The notes under the pieces were generated by a model. That model saw only the letters and a list, made by a program, of their open reading frames with translations, was not told where the DNA came from and ran no database searches. From a virus, in IMG/VR virus record IMGVR_UViG_3300035307_000014, positions 1 through 62,089 of that record: 62,089 nt of DNA, one strand, 5' to 3'. Shown piece after piece: positions 2 through 44,331 of the stretch. Made by a program: the position numbers and the translations under genes. The stretch's first letter is position 1. Every line of letters starts with the position of its first letter.

Positions 2-259
2 GAGCGACATACGCACGCGAGAGACATTTTTGAGCGCGCCAAGGAGAATGGCAAAGCAAGCCTCCGACGCGCTCAAATGAAATCAGCGCTCGATGGGAAT
101 GTTCAGGCGCAGATATGGCTCGGGAAGCAGTTGTTGGGTCAGAAAGATAAGCAGGAGCTTGAGCATACCGGCAAGGATGGTCAGCCCTTGGTGAAGGAAA
201 CCACGGTGGTCATCTTGCCGTCCAACAGCCGGGACGGCAGCAATGAGCAGGGCGGTTGA
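2..259 (+). CDS. Terminase small subunit, C-terminal part (cut by window edge)
   Basis: Open reading from the first bases of the window; the 5' end lies outside. The visible 85 residues have the layout of the C-terminal part of phage small terminases: a basic helix (ERAKENGKASLRRAQ), then MQIWLGKQ-like AQIWLGKQLLGQ followed by DKQELEHTG. Such proteins recognise the packaging site and recruit the ATPase. The gene overlaps the start of the large terminase by 17 bp, the usual order. An ATG at 77 gives a 60-residue protein but is probably internal. Confidence 0.75.
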   Translation, partial: ERHTHARDIFERAKENGKASLRRAQMKSALDGNVQAQIWLGKQLLGQKDKQELEHTGKDGQPLVKETTVVILPSNSRDGSNEQGG

Positions 260-2831
260 TAAAGTAGTTCATCAAATCCGCCCTCAGTCAGGTCCACAGC
301 ACCACTTTTTAAGCAGTTCAGCAGATATTGCAATATATGGCGGGAGCGCTGGCGGCGGTAAAAGTTATGCGCTGCTTCTTGAGCCTCTCAGACACATAAA
401 GAACAGCAAGTTTTCTGCGGTAATATTTAGAAGGACACTTACTGACGTTAAAAAGACTGGCTCTCTGTGGGATACAAGTGTTGAACTGTACGGCTCCATC
501 GGGGGGAAGCCAGTTAACAGCACGCTGACATGGGATTTTAAAAGTGGAGCCAAAATAACATTCGGGCATCTAGAGCATGAAGGCACAGTTCTAAACTGGC
601 AAGGAAGTCAAGTCCCACTTCTTTGCGTGGCGGTTGGTACAAAAGTGCGGATGGCCGATGGCTCATTGCTCCCGATAGAGCAAATAACCATCGGTGACAA
701 GGTAATGACGCTGCGGGGAAGTCGCAACGTTACATCAGTGAGCAAGCCGCAGCGAAAGCAATGCGTTGAGGCTACCATTGGTGGGGAAAAGCAGCTACAT
801 CCTACTGACCACCCTATACTGACTGCTGACGGATGGCTGTCTTGGGACGACCTGAAACTCCTTTGCGTGCAAGATTGCGCATCCACGTCACTTTGTGATC
901 TGCGCAGATTTGAGCCGCTAATTGCGAAGAGATGCTGTGCTCAGCAGCCAGTTTCCTCACGGATATCAGAGGGTTTTTCGCCGCTTCAAGCACAATCCGG
1001 ATCGTCTCATGATCTAATCGGTGATGTGGAGTTGCTCTCTTGTGAAGGAGATGATCAAAGCCATAGCGCAATGTCTGGTGACAGACACCAAGCACAGCAG
1101 CAGCCTCAATCGTTGTCCGTCCTTGCAGCGCGGCACGTACCATATCCTCGGTTATCCCCTGAGGGACAGGAATTAGATGGCGGAACTTCTTCTGATATAG
1201 AGTCGCAGTGCTCACTCCAAGATAGGCAGCCGCTTCCCGCACGGTGCGCCCGATCAGGGCGGATCGCACGTCACCATCTTTCAGAAATTGGCGACGGGGA
1301 GGGATTAAGTCGGGATAGTGAGTGCGGATCGAATCAACGCCACACTTCAGCAGCTTCGCGGCTTTTGTCAAACCGTGCGTTAGAATTGCTGGATGAACTT
1401 CCTCTCTTGACAGGAGATGAATGCCCCCTCTTAAGCGGGCATGAAGAGCATGGTGATCAGCTTTCAACATCACATCAAGATTTTTCGGGTTGTTGTTCGC
1501 GGGATCAAAATCTCTGTGGTGAACATCCTCTTCGCGGAAAAGAAGTCTTCCAATGTCATCCTCAGCAACCAAGCGGTGTTGAGGGACCATTTTTTCCTTC
1601 GTTGTCGCGTTCGGATGCCATGGGGCATGCTCAAGAATATAGCCATGCTTATCGTATCGAGTTCTCCCACCCTTATACGTCGGAGGAGAGGGTTTCTTCT
1701 GAACTTGTTCGCTTTGAGGCATGCGAAATAGCTCCTGTAGGAGTGCAAGATGTTATTGATATTACCGTTGATGGCGAAAACCATTATATAACCGAAAATG
1801 GGTTAGTCAATAAAAATTGTTTCGACGAGCTTACCCATTTTAGCCGTGCGCAGTTCTTTTACATGATGTCCCGCAACCGTTCGGGAAGCGGTGTCCGCCC
1901 TTACATTAGAGCGACCACAAATCCTGACTCGGATAGCTGGGTTGCCGAATTCATATCCTGGTGGATCGACCAGAAGACGGGACTTCCCATCCTGGAGCGG
2001 TCGGGCGTCATCCGGTGGTTTGTCCGTGTCGGAGACGTGCTCCAGTGGGCGGACACCCAAGCCGAGTTGATCGAGCGTTTCGGGGCCGAGGTTGTCCCAA
2101 AGTCGGTGACGTTCGTCCCTGCCCGCCTGGAAGACAACGCCATCCTGATGCAGATGGACCCAGGCTACCGGGCGAACCTGCTGGCGCTGCCGAGGGTTGA
2201 GCGAGAACGCCTCCTTGGCGGCAACTGGAAAGTTCGGCCGTCGTCTGGCCTCTACTTCCGCCGCGAATGGACCGAGATCGTTGACGCCATCCCAGAGGGG
2301 ACGGATTTTGTCCGAGGTTGGGATTTAGGCGCAACCGAAAAGACCAGCGAGAATGATCCCGATTGGACGGCCGGCACGAAGATTGGCCGGATGCCAGACG
2401 GTCGCTTTATCGTCGCGCACCATACACGCATGCGAGAGACTCCACTGAAGGTTGAGCGTGCCGTACTCAACACAGCTTCTGCGGATGGTCGAAAGGTTCG
2501 CATTGCATTACCGCAAGACCCTGGACAAGCAGGAAAAGACCAAGCACTGCGATATGTGCGCATGCTGGCCGGATACACAGTTCATGTCGGTCCAGCAACT
2601 GGAGACAAGATCACTAGATTTTCACCGTTCTCCGCTCAGGCCGAGTCTGGGAACGTAGTCGTTTTGCGCGGATCATGGAATGATGACTGGTTCACGGTGT
2701 TAGAAAACTTTCCTGAAGGCGCGCATGACGATGATGTCGATTCCACAAGTGAAGCCTTCAATCATCTTTGTGCTCGTGGACGCATGACTATTTCTGATAG
2801 TGCCGTGAGAGCATCTGGAGCGCTCCGGTAA
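243..2831 (+). CDS. Terminase large subunit precursor interrupted by an intein
   Basis: The 862-residue precursor has two extein parts. Residues 1-127 carry the Walker A motif (GGSAGGGKS, about 33-41). Residues 526-862 begin with CFDELTHF and hold the nuclease half (FVRGWDLGAT about residue 692; DDDVDS near the end). Removing residues 128-525 gives a 464-residue terminase, the normal family length, and rejoins VPLL to CFDEL, rebuilding the Walker B motif. The enzyme would translocate DNA into proheads and cut concatemers. Function depends on protein splicing, because the intein splits the ATPase centre. The start at 243 overlaps the small subunit gene. Confidence 0.93.
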   Translation: MSRAVDKVVHQIRPQSGPQHHFLSSSADIAIYGGSAGGGKSYALLLEPLRHIKNSKFSAVIFRRTLTDVKKTGSLWDTSVELYGSIGGKPVNSTLTWDFKSGAKITFGHLEHEGTVLNWQGSQVPLLCVAVGTKVRMADGSLLPIEQITIGDKVMTLRGSRNVTSVSKPQRKQCVEATIGGEKQLHPTDHPILTADGWLSWDDLKLLCVQDCASTSLCDLRRFEPLIAKRCCAQQPVSSRISEGFSPLQAQSGSSHDLIGDVELLSCEGDDQSHSAMSGDRHQAQQQPQSLSVLAARHVPYPRLSPEGQELDGGTSSDIESQCSLQDRQPLPARCARSGRIARHHLSEIGDGEGLSRDSECGSNQRHTSAASRLLSNRALELLDELPLLTGDECPLLSGHEEHGDQLSTSHQDFSGCCSRDQNLCGEHPLRGKEVFQCHPQQPSGVEGPFFPSLSRSDAMGHAQEYSHAYRIEFSHPYTSEERVSSELVRFEACEIAPVGVQDVIDITVDGENHYITENGLVNKNCFDELTHFSRAQFFYMMSRNRSGSGVRPYIRATTNPDSDSWVAEFISWWIDQKTGLPILERSGVIRWFVRVGDVLQWADTQAELIERFGAEVVPKSVTFVPARLEDNAILMQMDPGYRANLLALPRVERERLLGGNWKVRPSSGLYFRREWTEIVDAIPEGTDFVRGWDLGATEKTSENDPDWTAGTKIGRMPDGRFIVAHHTRMRETPLKVERAVLNTASADGRKVRIALPQDPGQAGKDQALRYVRMLAGYTVHVGPATGDKITRFSPFSAQAESGNVVVLRGSWNDDWFTVLENFPEGAHDDDVDSTSEAFNHLCARGRMTISDSAVRASGALR
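814..1722 (-). CDS. HNH homing endonuclease encoded antisense inside the intein
   Basis: The 302-residue protein has an HNH_3-type nuclease core at about residues 45-95: PQHRLVAEDD, then VHHRDFDPANNNPKNLD, then a downstream His (ADHHALH). The C-terminal two thirds contain about four helix-turn-helix-like repeats (for example AAAYLGVSTATLY and AAAVLGVCHQTLR), suited to DNA recognition. It lies wholly within the intein, from just after block B to just before block F, on the strand opposite the terminase. AGGAG stands 9 nt before the ATG at 1722. The probable role is to cut intein-less terminase genes so that the intein spreads. The family call is solid; activity is inferred. Confidence 0.88.
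   Translation of the reverse strand: MPQSEQVQKKPSPPTYKGGRTRYDKHGYILEHAPWHPNATTKEKMVPQHRLVAEDDIGRLLFREEDVHHRDFDPANNNPKNLDVMLKADHHALHARLRGGIHLLSREEVHPAILTHGLTKAAKLLKCGVDSIRTHYPDLIPPRRQFLKDGDVRSALIGRTVREAAAYLGVSTATLYQKKFRHLIPVPQGITEDMVRAALQGRTTIEAAAVLGVCHQTLRYGFDHLLHKRATPHHRLDHETIRIVLEAAKNPLISVRKLAAEHSISSQLAAQICADHKVTWMRNLARKGVSGRPKTAIRQQSV
1732..1736 (-). promoter_or_regulatory. Shine-Dalgarno of the antisense HNH gene
   Basis: On the minus strand AGGAG is followed by CTATTTCGC and then ATG (1722-1720). The same bases encode part of intein block F on the plus strand. A canonical site here supports real translation of the antisense gene. Confidence 0.7.
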
Positions 2832-5800
2832 TGAACGCCCAATCCACGCCTATCCGCCGCGAGCACGGGCGCAAGCGGGCGCTGGGCGCGTGGCGGAACC
2901 GCGATGCGCAGTTGTCTCTCGGGCTTGAGCCGGAGCGGGAGCGCAAGCCGATGAAGATTGGCTACATGGCGCACGCCCAGGCGTATGCGCAGCCTCCGCA
3001 GCAACGGGCATCAGAAGAGCCATTCGCGCCGTACAAGCCTGCCACAGGCGTAGTCCCGGCAGGCGCCAGCATGGCGATGGACGACGCCGGTTTCAGCGCG
3101 CTAGGATGGGCTCACCAGGCATATCTTGGTTCTGACGCCTATGCTGAGGGGCAGACCTTTCTTGGCTATCCTGCGCTTGCTCAGCTCGCTGTGCGGCCCG
3201 AGTATCGGCTGATCAGCGAGACCATTGCGACGGAGATGACGCGCAAATGGATATCGATCCAGGGCAAAGGCGACGGGGCGGACAAGTCAGAGAAGATCGC
3301 GCGGATTGAGGCTGAATTCGAGCGATTGAACGTGCGGGACACGTTCCGCGAGATCGCCGTGCAGGACGGGCTCTATGGGCGCGCGCATCTGTATCTCGAC
3401 ACTGGCGATAGCGACAACCAGAGAGAGCTGGAGACCAACCTAGGCGACGGTCGAGACGCTACATCTTGCGCCAAGGTAACTCCTGACCACAAGCTTCGGT
3501 GTATCATGGCCCGCGAGGCCGTGTGGACGTATCCGCAGCGCTTCAATGCGACGAACCCTTTGCGCGCGGACTGGTATCGCCCGGATACGTGGTTTGTGAT
3601 GGGGCAGCAGGTTCACGCGTCGCGGCTTTTGACGTTCGTCGGGCGCGAGGTGCCGGACATCCTCAAGCCAGCGTATGCGTTCGGTGGTCTGTCGCTGACA
3701 CAGATGGCCAAGCCCTACGTTGACAACTGGCTCGTCACCCGGCAGTCAGTTCAGGACATCATCCGCTCGTTCACTGTGTTCGTGCTAAAGACTAACATGA
3801 GCGCTGTGCTTCAAGGCGGCGGCGGAGATGATGTATTCCGCCGTGTAGACATGTTCAACGCCACGCGTGACAACCGTGGCACGATGGTTCTTGACAAGGA
3901 TACTGAAGAATTCGCTAACGTTTCTGCTTCGCTTGGGAGTTTAGACCATCTTCAGGCGCAAGCACAGGAGCATTTGGCATCGGTGAGTCGTATTCCTCTC
4001 GTGAAACTGACAGGTATCTCCCCATCAGGGCTCAATGCATCTAGTGATGGGGAGCTACGTTGCTTCGGAGACCTGATTCATTCCGAACAAGAGAGCCTGT
4101 TCCGCGCCAATCTTACTCGCATTCTCGGATTTGTTCAACTGTCTCTTTTCGGTGAGGTCGATCCGGATATTACCTTTGAATTCCTCCCGATCTACGAACT
4201 GACCGAGTCCGAGAAAGCCCAACTCCGCGCCACCGAGGCGACAACCGGAAAAACCCTGATCGAAGTCGGCGCACTCAGCCCGCAGGAAGAGCGCGCGCGT
4301 GTGGCCCACGATCCAGAGACGCCCTATGCGGGCCTCGACATCGACAAGATGCCGGATCTGCGCCAGGAGGAAGCCGAGGGGCTTATGCCTGGTGGCCACG
4401 AGCCTCCCGCTCCACAGGGCGCGAAGGAAGAGGCCAAGGACGGCGGCGATGAGCAGGTGGAGCTGATCCGCAAGCTATTCGGCAATGGCTTGGATGAAAC
4501 CCAGATCGAGACCATCAGGCGGCTGTTCGGAAGCGGCGAGCACAAAGATGAGGCGCTGAGCATCATCCGGAAGCTGTTTGGCAACAAGGCCACGGCGCAT
4601 GATCACGCCATAGCGATGGACTTTTCGGAGACCGACCACACTCGCGGCGGCAATCCTAAAAACCCTGGGCAATTCAGCAAAGGCGCCGGTGGCGGCACAC
4701 CCAAGGGTAAAAGAAAAGACAAAACTCAGAAGGTTGACCCCGCGCTGATTGGCCAAGTCCACGAAGCGCTGGCGCAGTCTCACCCCGAATTGGCGGCGGC
4801 GATTGCTAAACAGTTTGGGCTGAAGCCTCAGGATGCCAAGAAGAAAGCCGCATCCAAGCAAAAGGCTGGCGCGAAGCTTGTGGGTGATCCGCGCAAGATC
4901 ACCACGCCCGACGGCTCCATGGAAGTCACTGCGCAGCCAGAGCTTGTTGAGCTTGCGGACCTCATGCACGCCGAGGGCGATCTACAGCCGCGTAACCGCG
5001 ACACAGCCGAAAGCAAGGTGATGGCTCGCCAGCGTGCGGCAAGTCTCGACCCTGAGCAGTTGCAGCCTGGACGCGTTTCCGATGCGGGCGCCCCGATTGT
5101 CACAGCCGAAGGGACCGTGATTTCTGGCAATGGTCGCACGATGTCGATCCGCGAGGCGTACAACGATCCGAAGTTTGCTGAGCGGGCGGAAGCCTACAAG
5201 GCTGCGCTCGGGCCGGATGCCGAGGGCATGAAGCAGCCTGTGCTTGTCATGCGCCTGCCGAAAGACATGGATCATAAGCAACTCGTTGAGTTTGCCGACA
5301 AATCCAATCGTTCGCGCATCGAGGGCATGTCAGCCACGGAGCGGGCCAAGCGCGACGCGACGGCATTGGGACCAGACACGGCGGCGCTTTATCAAGGAGG
5401 AGACTTCACATCGCCAGCGAACCGCCAGTTCCTGCACGCGTTCACACAGAAGGCTATGACGGCCAACGAACGGGCGCAATTCTCGAAAGACGGCAAGCTC
5501 ACGAAAGAGGGCGTTGACCGGATGAGCGCGGCGGTCCTGGCCAGCGCTTACGACGATGTGGACGCCTTGTCGCTCATGCTGGAAAGCACGGACGACAACG
5601 TGAAGTCGATCACGAACGCCATGCGCGACACTGCCGGGAAGTTCGCCCAGCTCAAGTCTGGCGTGGCTTCTGGCCAAGTGTTGCCCGGCATGGACGTGAC
5701 GACGCAGATTGCAGACGCGGCCAAGCTTGTATCGAGCCTGCGGAAGCGCGGTGTATCACCGGCGAACCACTTCGATCAACTCGACGCCTTCGATAAGCCA

Positions 5801-6373
5801 GACCCGATGGTTGAGGCTTTGGTTCGGTCCTTCTACAGCGAAGGATTGACGCGCTCAGTATCTCAGCAGAAAATTATAGCCATTCTCGGCGCTTATGCTG
5901 ATGAAGCTGCTAAGCATCAACCTGGAGGCATCTTCCCCGATGAAACCAAATCATCTGAAGTCCTCGCCCTCGCAAACAGAAAAGCCAAAGGACAAGAGTC
6001 CACAGGCGAAATCGACTTGTTCAACCGCCCTACTGGTCATGAGCCAAGCCATGAGCAAGGTGGGGAACGAGACGGGCGACAAGGAGTTGCTGCAACAGGC
6101 GGACAATCTGGCGGCGGCGGCGAAGAAAAGCCAGTAGCCAAGGCGGCGCCAGCCAAGAAGCCTCGGGCGAAAGCCGCGACCAAGCCCAAGGGCGAAGCCC
6201 CGGCGAAGGCCGCCAAGTCCAAAGAGCCCAAGCAGCCGAAAGCAGCGAAGCCCAAGAAGGCGGATCTGATCTCCCAGCTCAAGGGGCTAGGTCAGAGCCC
6301 CAGCTCGCGAGCAACCATTGCAAAGCTGAAAGAGATGCTGGCCGATATCGAGAAGTCGAATGATGCGTCATGA
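2831..6373 (+). CDS. Portal protein (DUF1073) fused to a ddrB/ParB-like domain
   Basis: The protein has 1180 residues, far longer than ordinary portals (about 450-550). Residues about 75-490 match the DUF1073 portal family (RPEYRLISETIATEMTRKW; GISPSGLNASSDGE). Residues about 543-585 hold three copies of IRKLFG/IRRLFG. A linker with AMDFSETDHTRGG and NPGQFSKG follows. Residues about 690-1020 resemble the ddrB-like ParB-superfamily domain of phage polyproteins (VSDAGAPIVTAEGTVISGNG; SNRSRIEGMSATERA). The last 100 residues are Lys/Ala/Pro-rich. The portal is the DNA channel at the capsid vertex. The role of the ParB-like part is unknown. Confidence 0.88.
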   Translation: MNAQSTPIRREHGRKRALGAWRNRDAQLSLGLEPERERKPMKIGYMAHAQAYAQPPQQRASEEPFAPYKPATGVVPAGASMAMDDAGFSALGWAHQAYLGSDAYAEGQTFLGYPALAQLAVRPEYRLISETIATEMTRKWISIQGKGDGADKSEKIARIEAEFERLNVRDTFREIAVQDGLYGRAHLYLDTGDSDNQRELETNLGDGRDATSCAKVTPDHKLRCIMAREAVWTYPQRFNATNPLRADWYRPDTWFVMGQQVHASRLLTFVGREVPDILKPAYAFGGLSLTQMAKPYVDNWLVTRQSVQDIIRSFTVFVLKTNMSAVLQGGGGDDVFRRVDMFNATRDNRGTMVLDKDTEEFANVSASLGSLDHLQAQAQEHLASVSRIPLVKLTGISPSGLNASSDGELRCFGDLIHSEQESLFRANLTRILGFVQLSLFGEVDPDITFEFLPIYELTESEKAQLRATEATTGKTLIEVGALSPQEERARVAHDPETPYAGLDIDKMPDLRQEEAEGLMPGGHEPPAPQGAKEEAKDGGDEQVELIRKLFGNGLDETQIETIRRLFGSGEHKDEALSIIRKLFGNKATAHDHAIAMDFSETDHTRGGNPKNPGQFSKGAGGGTPKGKRKDKTQKVDPALIGQVHEALAQSHPELAAAIAKQFGLKPQDAKKKAASKQKAGAKLVGDPRKITTPDGSMEVTAQPELVELADLMHAEGDLQPRNRDTAESKVMARQRAASLDPEQLQPGRVSDAGAPIVTAEGTVISGNGRTMSIREAYNDPKFAERAEAYKAALGPDAEGMKQPVLVMRLPKDMDHKQLVEFADKSNRSRIEGMSATERAKRDATALGPDTAALYQGGDFTSPANRQFLHAFTQKAMTANERAQFSKDGKLTKEGVDRMSAAVLASAYDDVDALSLMLESTDDNVKSITNAMRDTAGKFAQLKSGVASGQVLPGMDVTTQIADAAKLVSSLRKRGVSPANHFDQLDAFDKPDPMVEALVRSFYSEGLTRSVSQQKIIAILGAYADEAAKHQPGGIFPDETKSSEVLALANRKAKGQESTGEIDLFNRPTGHEPSHEQGGERDGRQGVAATGGQSGGGGEEKPVAKAAPAKKPRAKAATKPKGEAPAKAAKSKEPKQPKAAKPKKADLISQLKGLGQSPSSRATIAKLKEMLADIEKSNDAS

Positions 6374-23494: not shown

Positions 23495-24078
23495 CCGACA
23501 GCTCAACGGGCGGCTATCTGACGCCATCTGCAACGCCAGCGCCGTTGCAGGGCGACAGCCTCAACACGTTCGTGCAGCCCATCATTGTGGGCATCACGGG
23601 GCTGCCTGGGGCGATGGTGAGGCCAGCATTCCAGACTGAGCCCCCAGATGCTCCAGACGGCGGGACGGCCTGGGCTGCGTTCCGCTACACGTCGCGGAAA
23701 ACCGACAATTATCCGTTCGTCGGCCACAACACAGACGGCTCCGACACGCTGCGGCGCCACGAGGAAATCGATATCCTCGTCAGTTTCTACGATCTCGGAT
23801 CGTCCGGCTTGGCTGACCAATACGCCGCGCTACTTCGCGACGGGCTGGCGATCCCGCAGAACCTGGAAACCCTCCGCACTGCCGGAATGGGCTTCGTCTC
23901 CTGTGGCGACCTGACGACGGTTCCCGTGATCCTCAAGCAACGCTGGCTCTATCGCGTTGACCTGCCCTTCACCATCCGCCGCGAAATCGTGCGCGTCTAT
24001 CCAGTTCTAAACCTCCTCACGGCGACCGCAACCGTAACAACGGACGGCGGCGTTACAGTCCACATCGCCACAAATTGA
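23491..24078 (+). CDS. Phage neck terminator protein (gp12-like, LIC_12616 family)
   Basis: The 195 residues fit the neck-terminator family. GGYLTPSATPAP is at the N-terminus, then a VGITGLPGAMVRPAFQTEPP segment and TAWAAFRYTSRKTDNYPF. A domain ending in WLYRVDLPFTIRREIVRVYP follows. It directly precedes the sheath gene. The start overlaps the preceding stop (ATGA). It should cap the tail at the head-tail joint. Confidence 0.78.
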   Translation: MTDSSTGGYLTPSATPAPLQGDSLNTFVQPIIVGITGLPGAMVRPAFQTEPPDAPDGGTAWAAFRYTSRKTDNYPFVGHNTDGSDTLRRHEEIDILVSFYDLGSSGLADQYAALLRDGLAIPQNLETLRTAGMGFVSCGDLTTVPVILKQRWLYRVDLPFTIRREIVRVYPVLNLLTATATVTTDGGVTVHIATN

Positions 24079-24088
24079 GGCAAACTCT

Positions 24089-25588
24089 ATGGCTTTGACT
24101 ATCGGCTTGCCGGTAAGCCGTTTGATTTCGGCTACCGTAAATCTTGCGGCTGTGGGCGCGGCTGCGCCAAACTTCAGCACATGCCTGTTACTCGGAACAT
24201 CAACCGTGGTCAACGTCACGGAACGCTCGCGGAATTACACGTCGCTCGCGGCTGTGGCCACGGACTTTGGGACCAGCGCTGAGGAGTATCTTGGCGCGGT
24301 TGCGTGGTTCGGGCAGTCGCCCAAGCCATCGAGCCTGTTGATTGGGCGCTGGGCGAACACCGCCAGCCACGGGCAGCTTATCGGCGGCGTGGTCTCGGCC
24401 ACGAACCAGCTTATGGCGACGTGGACCGCGATTACAACGGGATCGTTCCACATCAGCCTGGACGGGACCGGCTACGATGTGACCGGCCTCGACTTCCATT
24501 CTCAGACAACGCTCAACGGCGTGGCATCCGTGATCACTGCCGGGGTGACCGCTCACGGCGCCACGGTGGTCTGGAACGCCACGTACCAACGTTTCGAGTG
24601 CACGCTCACATCCACGGGCATCACCTCAATTGTGACGTTCGCTACGGCGGTATCGCCATCCTCAGGCGTTGACATCTCCTCCATGCTCGCCTGGCGCTCT
24701 ACGTCGTCGGGGGCCTATCAGGCTTCGGGTATCGCGGCAGAGAGCGCGCTCGCTTGTGTCACGATCTTCGATCAGTACTGGAGCGATCAGTGGTACGGCC
24801 TCGTCATCCCCACCGCCACTGACACGGATCATGCGGCCGTGGGCTCGTACATCGAAGCGGCAACCGCCTCGCACATTTACGGCGTGACGAGCAGCGACGG
24901 CGCGATCATTACAAGCAGCACGGGCACCAATATCGCCTACACGTTGAAGACTCTCGGCTTGACGCACAGTCTTGTCCAGTATTCGAGCACAAGCTCCCAT
25001 GCCGTGTTGAGCCTGCTGGCGAGAATCCTCACGACAGACTGGACTGCAAACAATACAGCCATAACGCTCATGTATAAAAATGAGCCCGGAATTACCGCAG
25101 AAACCCTAACTGAAACACAGATGGGTTATCTTGAGGGATACAACTGCAACGTATTCGTAAATTACAGCAATAGTACGGCAATCATTGAGCCAGGAAAAGT
25201 TTGCAGCGGTGATTATATCGACACGATAATTGGAAGTGATTGGCTGAAAGTCACGATTCAGACCGATCTGTACAATGCGCTGAAGACTTCAACCACAAAA
25301 ATCCCCCAGACAGACGGCGGCATGCATCAGCTTGCCACGATAATCGAGTCTGACTTGGCCCAGGGTGTCAACAACGGGCTCCTCGCCCCCGGCATTTGGA
25401 CGGGCTCCAGCTTCGGGCAGATCGTCACGGGCGACTACCTTCCTAAGGGTTATTACGTATACCAGCCCGCGATCTCGTCTCAGTCGTCCACCGCCCGCGC
25501 CGCGCGCCAGTCCGTCGCCTTTCAGGTCGCCGCAGTCCTTGGCGGCGCTGTCCACACCGCGTCCGTTGCAATTAACGTTGCGCCGTAA
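24089..25588 (+). CDS. Tail sheath protein (DUF3383)
   Basis: The 499 residues match the DUF3383 sheath family: LPVSRLISATVNLAA, LLLGTSTVVNVTERSRNY, WFGQSPKPSSLLIGRWAN, and in the C-terminal half GMHQLATIIESDLAQGVNNG. The sheath forms the contractile outer tube and so shows that this is a myovirus-type tail. The tube gene follows after 24 bp, the usual order. Confidence 0.9.
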   Translation: MALTIGLPVSRLISATVNLAAVGAAAPNFSTCLLLGTSTVVNVTERSRNYTSLAAVATDFGTSAEEYLGAVAWFGQSPKPSSLLIGRWANTASHGQLIGGVVSATNQLMATWTAITTGSFHISLDGTGYDVTGLDFHSQTTLNGVASVITAGVTAHGATVVWNATYQRFECTLTSTGITSIVTFATAVSPSSGVDISSMLAWRSTSSGAYQASGIAAESALACVTIFDQYWSDQWYGLVIPTATDTDHAAVGSYIEAATASHIYGVTSSDGAIITSSTGTNIAYTLKTLGLTHSLVQYSSTSSHAVLSLLARILTTDWTANNTAITLMYKNEPGITAETLTETQMGYLEGYNCNVFVNYSNSTAIIEPGKVCSGDYIDTIIGSDWLKVTIQTDLYNALKTSTTKIPQTDGGMHQLATIIESDLAQGVNNGLLAPGIWTGSSFGQIVTGDYLPKGYYVYQPAISSQSSTARAARQSVAFQVAAVLGGAVHTASVAINVAP

Positions 25589-42158: not shown

Positions 42159-42731
42159 ATGAAACTTTCTGTTTGGGCCGAAAGGCAAGGCATTTCCTAC
42201 AAGACTGCGTGGCGCTGGTTTAAAGCCGGGACGCTTCCTGTGCGCGCAGAGCAAATGCCATCTGGAACCGTGATTATTTACGAAGATGAAGCGCCATCCG
42301 CTGCGGTTGCGCTGTACGCTCGCGTCTCCAGCCATGAACAGAAAGATCAACTTGCGGCTCAGCTTGGTAGATTGTCGGAATACGCCAGCAAAGAAAAGCT
42401 TGTCGTCATTCGGTCCATAAGCGAAATCGGCTCAGGACTAAACGGACACCGTCCCAAGCTTATGAAGCTTTTGCGTGATCCTGCGATCTCGGCGATTGTC
42501 GTTGAGCATCGCGACCGGCTTATGCGATTTGGCTCCGAATACGTCGATAGCGCGCTTGCCGCGCAGGGGCGCCGCATCATCGTCGTCAACGTGGACGAGA
42601 TGAAAGACGATCTCGTCCGCGACATGATCGAAGTGCTCACATCCTTCTGCGCTCGCCTCTACGGACGCCGGTCATCGAGAAATCGCGCCAAGAAGGCTGT
42701 TGAAGCCATCGAGAGTGCATCCGATGACTGA
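42159..42731 (+). CDS. IS607-family serine recombinase (TnpA)
   Basis: The ATG at 42159 starts the family N-terminus MKLSVWAERQGISYKTAWRW, a MerR-like helix-turn-helix. The catalytic domain follows: ALYARVSSHEQKDQL with the nucleophilic Ser, ISEIGSGLNGHRPKLMKLLR and VVEHRDRLMRFG. The length is 190 residues, normal for the family. It catalyses insertion with little target specificity. Its end overlaps the tnpB-like ATG by 8 bp. Confidence 0.9.
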   Translation: MKLSVWAERQGISYKTAWRWFKAGTLPVRAEQMPSGTVIIYEDEAPSAAVALYARVSSHEQKDQLAAQLGRLSEYASKEKLVVIRSISEIGSGLNGHRPKLMKLLRDPAISAIVVEHRDRLMRFGSEYVDSALAAQGRRIIVVNVDEMKDDLVRDMIEVLTSFCARLYGRRSSRNRAKKAVEAIESASDD

Positions 42732-44331
42732 AACATCGATTTTCACCTACAAGGCCCGCGTCCACGTAACGCCCGAACAGGATGCGCTGCTCTCGGCGTG
42801 GGCGGAATTGCATGGCCGTGCCGAACGGCGCTTCGCGAGCGCGTTTCTGCGCGGAGAAAAGCTTTCATCAGCGCACTGCCTGTTCAAGTCGATCCGCGAC
42901 GAGATGGGCCTTTCTGACCGCAACGCTGGCGCGGCGCTCGTTTCCGCTGACGGCAAGGTCCAGGCTGCGAAGGAGGCCCGCAAGCGTCACGTCTCCGATC
43001 TGCAAGGCAAAATCTCGCGCGCCGAAAAGGTTTTGGCTAAGCCACGGAAACAGCGGCCGATGAAACCGGACGTGATCCACCAGAAGCGCCGCCGTCTAGC
43101 CACGCTGCGCGCCCGGCTCTCTGCGATCCAGACGGAGATGCGCCCCAAGTTGGTTTTCGGCTCCCGCAAACTGCTTCACGCGCAATTCGATCTCGCGGCC
43201 AACGGGTTCGCCAATCATGCGGAGTGGCGGAAAGCGTGGCTGGCGGCCCGCTCCGGCGAAATTATGATCACCGGCCGGAACTCCGAGGCTTCCGGAAACC
43301 TGACATGCCGCGCCAGCTTCGACGGCGACGCCTTCGCGCTGACGCTGCGCGTCCCCTATGCGCTCGAAGCCCAGTTCGGCAAGCACCTGCGGCTCGACGG
43401 CGTCAACTTCCACCACGGCGCAGACGCCATCCTTGCGGCGATCTCGGCGCCGGAGACGCCCTCGACCAAGAGCCAGAAGGCGACCGCGCCCGTCACTTGG
43501 TGCTTTGTCCGCCCTGACGATGGCAAAGGTTGGCTGGTCTACGTCTCGACGCACGTCAAGGCGGCGCCGGTTGTCACGCGTCGCGAGATGGGCGCCATCG
43601 GCGCAGACTTCAACGCGGACCACATCGCCGTTTCGGAGATTGACCGCCACGGCAATCCGCTCCCGACTCGATGCAAGCGAATTGACCTCGTCACGCGCGG
43701 CAAGACGGCGAACCAACGCAGGGAGCTTGTCCGCGTCGCAGCAAAGGAGATTGCGGAGCACGCCCGCGTCGTCGGCAAGCCGGTCGTCATCGAAAAACTA
43801 GATTTCGCCGAGAAGAAACGCGCTCTTGAGGCGGTTGACACGCGCCGGGCTCGCATGCTTTCCGCGCTGACCTACTCGGCATTTGCCCAAGCACTGCGCG
43901 CGGCCTGCTTTCGCGCTGGCGTCGAAGTCATCGAAGTCAACCCCGCGTGGACCAGCGTCATCGGCGCTGTGAATTACGCAACAAAAACAGGTTTATCCGT
44001 CCACCTTGCGGCTGCTGTGGCAATCGCAAGACGTGGACTGTCTTATCGTGAGACTGCAGTTGGCCGCTCGGCGAAAACGCCGAACGGTCGCGGCGGCCAT
44101 GTCACCTTCGCGCTACCGGATCGGAATCGTGCGAAGCATGTATGGTCGCATTGGGCCGCAATTTCACGAGCAAGGCAGGCGGCGATTAAATCGCATTTCC
44201 TGTCGCTTCGAAAGAGGCGAACAGCGGACAAGTCCTTGGATGAAGACCGCAAGTTCTTACAGGAATTCATGGCTGCGACGCCATGCGCTAATCGTGCTCA
44301 AAGCGGTTCGGAGCGCGTCCATGCCCAATGA
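42724..44331 (+). CDS. TnpB-like RuvC protein, histidine at the third catalytic position
   Basis: The 535 residues belong to the TnpB-related group associated with IS elements in alphaproteobacteria. RuvC-I is GADFNADHIAVSEID (Asp295), RuvC-II is VVIEKLDF (Glu357). In RuvC-III the usual Asp of D-x-NAA is replaced by His427 (GLSVHLAAAVAIARRGL). No CxxC zinc finger precedes it. TnpB proteins are RNA-guided nucleases that help element maintenance. Whether this His form cuts is unknown. The decayed copy at 58417-59954 has the same His. Confidence 0.82.
   Translation: MTETSIFTYKARVHVTPEQDALLSAWAELHGRAERRFASAFLRGEKLSSAHCLFKSIRDEMGLSDRNAGAALVSADGKVQAAKEARKRHVSDLQGKISRAEKVLAKPRKQRPMKPDVIHQKRRRLATLRARLSAIQTEMRPKLVFGSRKLLHAQFDLAANGFANHAEWRKAWLAARSGEIMITGRNSEASGNLTCRASFDGDAFALTLRVPYALEAQFGKHLRLDGVNFHHGADAILAAISAPETPSTKSQKATAPVTWCFVRPDDGKGWLVYVSTHVKAAPVVTRREMGAIGADFNADHIAVSEIDRHGNPLPTRCKRIDLVTRGKTANQRRELVRVAAKEIAEHARVVGKPVVIEKLDFAEKKRALEAVDTRRARMLSALTYSAFAQALRAACFRAGVEVIEVNPAWTSVIGAVNYATKTGLSVHLAAAVAIARRGLSYRETAVGRSAKTPNGRGGHVTFALPDRNRAKHVWSHWAAISRARQAAIKSHFLSLRKRRTADKSLDEDRKFLQEFMAATPCANRAQSGSERVHAQ

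Follow-up and report, generated by a model that had tools for sequence, protein, structure and literature searches.

The intein-containing terminase gene

The window, which is the whole stretch of viral DNA analysed here (62,089 nucleotides, IMG/VR record IMGVR_UViG_3300035307_000014), carries a gene for the terminase large subunit (TerL) that contains an intein, and a gene for an HNH homing-endonuclease-like protein lies inside the intein on the opposite strand. The positions of these features are listed in Table 1. The tail sheath gene at 24038-25585 (phrog_205, 5e-107) indicates that the window belongs to a contractile-tailed phage. Positions 2831-6370 encode a portal protein fused to a ddrB-like ParB domain (Phage_portal_3, 7.6e-74; ddrB-ParB, 6.9e-25), and a weak transposase-like match was found at 42628-44328 (phrog_506, 2e-6).

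Table 1. Features of the TerL locus in the window (a slash marks the edge of the intein)
Feature	Positions	Strand	Remarks
TerL ORF	243-2831	+	862 aa; phrog_979 E 5e-161, Pfam Terminase_6N/6C
TerL exteins	243-623 and 1818-2828	+	Either side of the intein
Intein, 398 aa	624-1817	+	Inserted before Cys of LL/CFDE (Walker B); Hom_end_hint 2e-6, Vint
Intein block A, CVAVGTKVRMADG	624-662	+	From sequence; C1 and M10 invariant in alignment A4
Intein block B, LHPTDHPILT	795-824	+	Intein H63 invariant in alignment A4; last HNH codons opposite
Antisense HNH homing-endonuclease-like gene, 302 aa	814-1722	-	ATG at 1722, stop 814-816; phrog_7545 E 2e-17
Sense linker, open but predicted disordered	876-1661	+	AF2 pLDDT mostly <50; 0 stops
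Helix-turn-helix repeats of the HNH protein, predicted DNA binding	1057-1278	-	HTH_17 1.9e-6, HTH_28, HTH_23; AF2 helices
HNH_3 core, HRLVAEDDIGR...VHHRDFDPANNNPKNL...H	1432-1596	-	Pfam HNH_3; H68, H69, N77, N81, H91 invariant
Shine-Dalgarno AGGAG	1732-1736	-	9 nt before HNH ATG
Intein block F, VIDITVDGENHYITENG	1752-1802	+	pLDDT about 83-94
Sigma70-like promoter, TTGACT-N16-TATAAT	1783-1810	-	11/12 match; in block F/G codons, 61 nt upstream of HNH ATG
Intein block G and +1 residue, NGLVNKN/C	1797-1820	+	Family alignment

Hint-type matches in the TerL ORF start at residue 128, and the intein occupies ORF residues 128-525, running from C1 to N398 with the Cys of the Walker B motif LLCFDE as the +1 residue. 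The sequence criteria for an intein are met by the C1 nucleophile, TDH in block B, the terminal Asn (NKN) and the +1 Cys. A TerL from another metagenome with 92% protein identity (L002) aligns without a gap across the insertion site; this clean empty site defines the exact junction, which reads CTT/TGTTTCGAC in the window after removal of the intein. The intein was absent from 31/31 TerL relatives on viral contigs, each of which spans the site in one unbroken match, and with the empty site of L002 the criterion of a clean in-frame insertion is met. Two TerLs only 50-62% identical to that of the window (L213 and L248) have an antisense-HNH intein inserted ahead of the same CFDE. Since the 92%-identical gene is empty and the 50-62%-identical genes are occupied, the distribution is sporadic, as is typical of mobile inteins.

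In the AlphaFold model of the intein, residues 1-80 and 361-398 reached a pLDDT of about 80-95, and most of the intervening stretch stayed below 50. A Foldseek search with this model gave the gp41-1 (E 3e-5), DnaB and PI-SceI inteins as top matches, Prp8 was also found, and every one of the 17 matches at E<=1e-3 was an intein or intein-like domain. The criterion of a Hint/intein fold, with two well-modelled splicing halves around a disordered linker, is therefore met by the predicted structure, from which splicing is inferred. No nuclease match was detected in the sense linker by domain search, and the criterion for a canonical in-frame endonuclease is not met, the HNH being on the minus strand only.

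The antisense HNH gene

The match of the window HNH protein to Pfam HNH_3 (E 6e-5) is just under the cutoff, and the HTH_17 match is above its own cutoff. The catalytic motif and a DNA-binding module are both present, which meets the criterion for a homing-type nuclease; cleavage activity is inferred. The AF2 model of the protein is folded (pLDDT 81), and the nearest solved structure by both profile and fold was I-HmuI, with weak similarity in each case (Foldseek E 0.22). The 3' end of the gene, comprising the last codons and the stop at 814-816, runs antisense through the codons of intein block B, and the phase of the overlap places the HNH wobble base opposite position 2 of the sense codon.

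A sequence-only reading had proposed a complete TerL intein at 624-1817, and this is borne out by the Hint matches, blocks A, B, F and G and the empty site in L002. It had also described a 302-aa HNH gene on the opposite strand, preceded by AGGAG 9 nt before its ATG, in the phase given above and across a sense frame without stops for 909 bp. All of these descriptions hold; only the placement of the gene strictly between blocks B and F does not, as its 3' end lies opposite block B and its promoter-like site falls within the block F/G codons.

A single-sequence scan of viral contigs with the window HNH returned no relatives, which were reached by alignment-based scans alone. No close homologue of the window's own HNH was found in the sequence sets searched (metagenome contigs not among them), so selection on this protein could be judged only through its family and the stop statistic.

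Recurrence of antisense-HNH inteins

Alignment-based scans of viral contigs, together with phage records, yielded 172 distinct HNH genes, 97 of which are antisense within a much longer open frame, 96 of them in one common phase. These 96 distinct viral or phage nested HNH ORFs, the window counted, form 52 clusters at 60% identity. The opposite-strand frames of the non-nested HNHs do not exceed 268 aa, bar one of 560 aa, resulting in a bimodal split. The sequence-only reading had presented the locus as a single oddity, which must be corrected to a recurrent class. The nested host frames encode TerL (at Walker A or Walker B sites), helicases, other ATPases and a giant helicase/methyltransferase ORF, and nearly all have recognisable intein ends, with C1 at the start and HN, KN or QN followed by C, S or T at the end.

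Eight cultured phages carry an antisense-HNH intein, namely seven Pectobacterium phages and Dickeya phage Setonix. In Pectobacterium phage Ymer, where the TerL intein with its antisense HNH lies in the record at 2328-3191 (L134), TerL is labelled hypothetical and the HNH is unannotated. Three clear loci were found in bacterial genomes: a Rhizobiaceae MAG (L283), a Phycisphaeraceae MAG (L284) and Polaromonas (L285). A search of plasmids gave no clear case.

Several candidates were set aside. A long antisense ORF in another phase and without intein motifs (L058) was taken as chance, the HNH/helicase overlap in Streptomyces phage BRock is only a small same-strand overlap and is not nested, and five long ORFs with the HNH in sense (L094, L107, L113, L115 and L125) had no clear intein motif by simple pattern.

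The antisense gene might act mainly as a regulator or as a cofactor of terminase packaging, and not as a homing enzyme. TerL is the commonest host, an antisense transcript could damp early TerL expression, and HNH proteins that help packaging exist in phages, such as HK97 gp74. However, the same arrangement is found in helicases, an AAA ATPase and the giant helicase/methyltransferase ORF (L069, L097, L106 and L198), and an antisense HNH is missing from most close relatives of the window TerL; we consider this explanation unlikely.

In a tree of the HNH core (166 rows, 108 columns), the nested label requires 8 changes, compared with about 54 when shuffled. Two large nested groups were observed, one at the TerL Walker B site, which includes the window, and one at Walker A and helicase sites. 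A tree of 108 columns cannot separate one origin from several, so a single origin is neither excluded nor shown; the unvarying phase favours common descent or a strong constraint.

The open sense frame is not due to chance

Across the 909 bp of the HNH gene, the sense frame is free of stops. When the window HNH was recoded synonymously, the terminase frame acquired a mean of 12.5 stops with phage codon usage and about 15 with its own codons, and a zero-stop outcome occurred in 0/5000 draws for each of three synonymous nulls. None of 315 same-length windows from other phage genes was open in that phase. Nor is the phase a favourable one, since the opposite strand of free HNH genes contains 4.2 stops per 100 codons in the nested phase, the highest of the three, compared with 3.3 and 3.9 in the others. 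Across the 52 nested clusters, there were 0 sense stops against 352 expected, and 387 and 585 stops were counted in the other two antisense phases. A sense frame open by chance was therefore rejected on the recoding nulls and the family stop counts. Phe followed by Ile, Lys, Met, Asn or Thr, the pairs that force a sense stop, occurred 0 times in 22,345 among nested HNHs and 73 times in 12,859 among free HNHs, indicating that the open-frame constraint extends into the nuclease protein.

The nested set was selected by its open sense frame, and its zero stop count is partly by construction. For this reason, intein-flanked HNHs with broken frames were sought, and only two were found (L198 and L074), each with an antisense HNH beside intein halves. 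In L198 (4805-2700, minus strand), the host is an AAA ATPase interrupted at IPG/TGKS, the linker is full of stops and the C-half has its own ATG. In L074 (900-1, minus strand), the linker is full of stops at the N-half and the contig ends. The criterion of an interrupted host frame, as in a fractured gene or split intein, is met in L198 and in the N-half of L074 and is not met in the window. These two loci are probably split inteins with an antisense homing gene, and relatives such as L198 suggest, by inference, how an antisense gene could come into being with no essential gene having to be broken first.

Related HNH-HTH proteins exist as free-standing phage genes (phiH, MulchMansion and Hallingskeid), and such a gene might have landed by chance in a mini-intein as a passenger, the open sense frame being luck. 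The avoidance of stops, the fixed phase in 96 cases, the protein-level conservation of the HNH described below and the clustering of the nested label on the tree all speak against this, and it is the least credible explanation that we weighed.

Selection on the two frames

Selection was compared in 27 disjoint homologous pairs. The differences at HNH codon positions 1, 2 and 3 were 904, 777 and 1775, an excess at the HNH wobble, and HNH identity exceeded sense-linker identity in 27/27 pairs, with means of 0.78 and 0.60. Protein-level selection therefore acts mainly on the nuclease, and the sense linker seems to be held mainly to being open.

These data bear on what the sequence-only reading had expected of the homologues. 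It had argued that silent change in the nuclease forces radical change in the linker in this phase, and the argument was right in direction: of the two, the linker evolves faster, and it is predicted to be disordered. It had named disrupted antisense frames next to conserved intein blocks in most genomes, or stops in the sense linker without loss of the terminase, as evidence that would refute it. Homologues with conserved blocks keep the antisense HNH, in 96 distinct cases and one phase, stops are confined to L198 and L074, the former resembling a split intein, and the comparison of both frames that it had called for revealed protein-level selection on the HNH frame by codon position.

A nuclease that is dead or dying, with the antisense ORF persisting only through upkeep of the sense frame, would be consistent with the long branch of the window HNH and its position just below the Pfam cutoff. 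Set against this are the selection on the HNH frame in the family, stronger than that on the linker in every pair, and the intact H, N and H residues, good ribosome-binding site and near-consensus promoter in the window, so we regard it as very unlikely.

Signals for separate expression

The promoter-like site of the window is made up of codons of blocks F and G (AT TAT A of HYI, and GLVN read in reverse), and a site of this quality had p 0.005 under synonymous recoding of the sense codons. In the family, the promoter score of the 150 nt above the HNH start exceeded that of synonymous recodings by a mean z of +1.37 over 52 clusters, with 15-17 of the 52 at p<0.05 where about 2.6 were expected. 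The same region on the sense strand gave +0.16, and four C-extein controls gave -0.43 to -0.64. The promoter weights were standard E. coli values, and only the sigma70-like type was scored. A Shine-Dalgarno sequence preceded candidate HNH starts in 32/52 clusters, compared with 35% in controls. The promoter signal and the Shine-Dalgarno excess, both sequence evidence, favour separate expression of the HNH, and expression itself is inferred.

Proposed mechanism

We conclude, with a probability of roughly 0.8, that the window represents a stable class of mobile inteins whose homing endonuclease is encoded antisense and expressed independently; splicing, cleavage, expression and homing are inferred. 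The idea of the sequence-only reading that an antisense-nested homing gene mobilises this intein is supported by the 96 one-phase cases, the selection on the HNH frame and the promoter and Shine-Dalgarno signals. Sense expression of the terminase gene would produce a precursor whose Hint halves (intein residues 1-80 and 361-398) fold together round the disordered linker, and the precursor would then splice the intein out. From the opposite strand, the sigma70-like promoter in the block F/G codons and the ribosome-binding site would direct synthesis of the HNH-HTH nuclease, whose target would be terminase genes without the intein, cut at or close to the Walker B site. Repair from an occupied copy would move the intein and the nuclease gene together, as inferred by analogy. 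In the shared DNA, amino acids are selected mainly for the nuclease, with the sense frame kept stop-free and its four blocks (A, B, F and G) kept functional. That nearly a hundred homologues share one phase points to an ancient arrangement, which has since diversified and reached many ATPase-motif sites.

Counting against this explanation are the lack of biochemical evidence of splicing, cleavage or expression, the HNH_3 score below the Pfam cutoff and the sense stops of L198 and L074, which mean that the frame is not always kept open. We also lean, with more reserve, towards a wider claim: that this is a widespread, old, two-strand intein class, not described before, in which both genes share DNA in a single, constant phase, the splicing frame stays free of stops and, because the nuclease promoter lies within block F/G codons, splicing and homing can be expressed independently.

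Relation to known systems

Canonical large inteins of the PI-SceI type and phage TerL inteins (PMC5050341) have an in-frame homing endonuclease, and the HNH intein in the dCTP deaminase of cyanophage CL131 is also in-frame (PMC6293099). The window resembles canonical large inteins in its Hint domain, C1, terminal Asn, C/S/T at +1, insertion in a conserved ATPase motif and nuclease between blocks B and F. It differs in that the nuclease is a separate opposite-strand gene with its own start and promoter, and the linker is disordered and nuclease-free.

The ShiLan domain and the Pacc40 insertion are hidden out-of-frame HNHs in phage methylases (PMC11855218). In ShiLan, as in the window, the HNH is out of frame and the host frame is open across the insert; however, the ShiLan HNH is on the same strand, without a splicing domain, and is thought to be retained in the host protein (PMC11855218), whereas that of the window is antisense in a true intein. 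The window does not meet the ShiLan-type criterion of a same-strand out-of-frame HNH in a non-intein insert. The Didymium L2066 and S956 nuclear group I introns contain antisense homing endonuclease genes whose expression and cleavage have been demonstrated (PMC9548176). They share with the window a homing gene on the strand opposite a self-splicing host element, but they are RNA introns in rDNA, where the splicing element needs no ORF over the homing gene (PMC9548176).

Split inteins with a homing gene (fractured genes) also have a separate nuclease gene between the intein halves. In Yersinia phage TG1 (L045), a split intein divides uvsX into two CDSs, and a GIY-YIG gene lies between the two intein halves; there, the nuclease is on the same strand and the sense frame is split, whereas the window is contiguous and antisense. 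L198 and L074 resemble antisense relatives of split inteins.

The literature search turned up no description of an intein with an antisense homing gene; a 2025 preprint (Gosselin, Arsenault and Gogarten) that deals with inteins of "non-canonical architecture" in actinobacteriophages may overlap. Within the literature checked, the antisense-HNH intein looks like an undescribed kind of mobile intein. If true, it would add a third pairing of intein and homing endonuclease to the in-frame and split ones, and it would be a large natural example of long genes overlapping on opposite strands with statistically supported dual constraint. It would account for the long, odd, disordered linkers without a recognisable nuclease in many phage inteins. 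The Ymer record illustrates that standard annotation can overlook an antisense nuclease gene, and the cultured carriers offer systems for testing whether splicing and homing are controlled separately.

Other inteins were observed among the host genes. The long Ser/Thr/Gln-rich linker of the TerL intein in L035 (1468-2400, plus strand) contained neither a sense nuclease nor an antisense HNH; a different overlapping gene, or one that has decayed, may lie there. One TerL (L059, 2811-6392, minus strand) has two inteins, with a sense LAGLIDADG-like nuclease (GILIGDGHL) at Walker A and an antisense HNH at Walker B. Another TerL (L055, 2361-4556, minus strand) has, besides its antisense-HNH intein, another short insert of intein-like character further downstream (CVPYGLVRTPTG...WVSGN/S). 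A helicase/methyltransferase ORF of about 2,700-2,800 aa with an antisense-HNH intein was found in L069, L200 and L285, the last being the Polaromonas genome.
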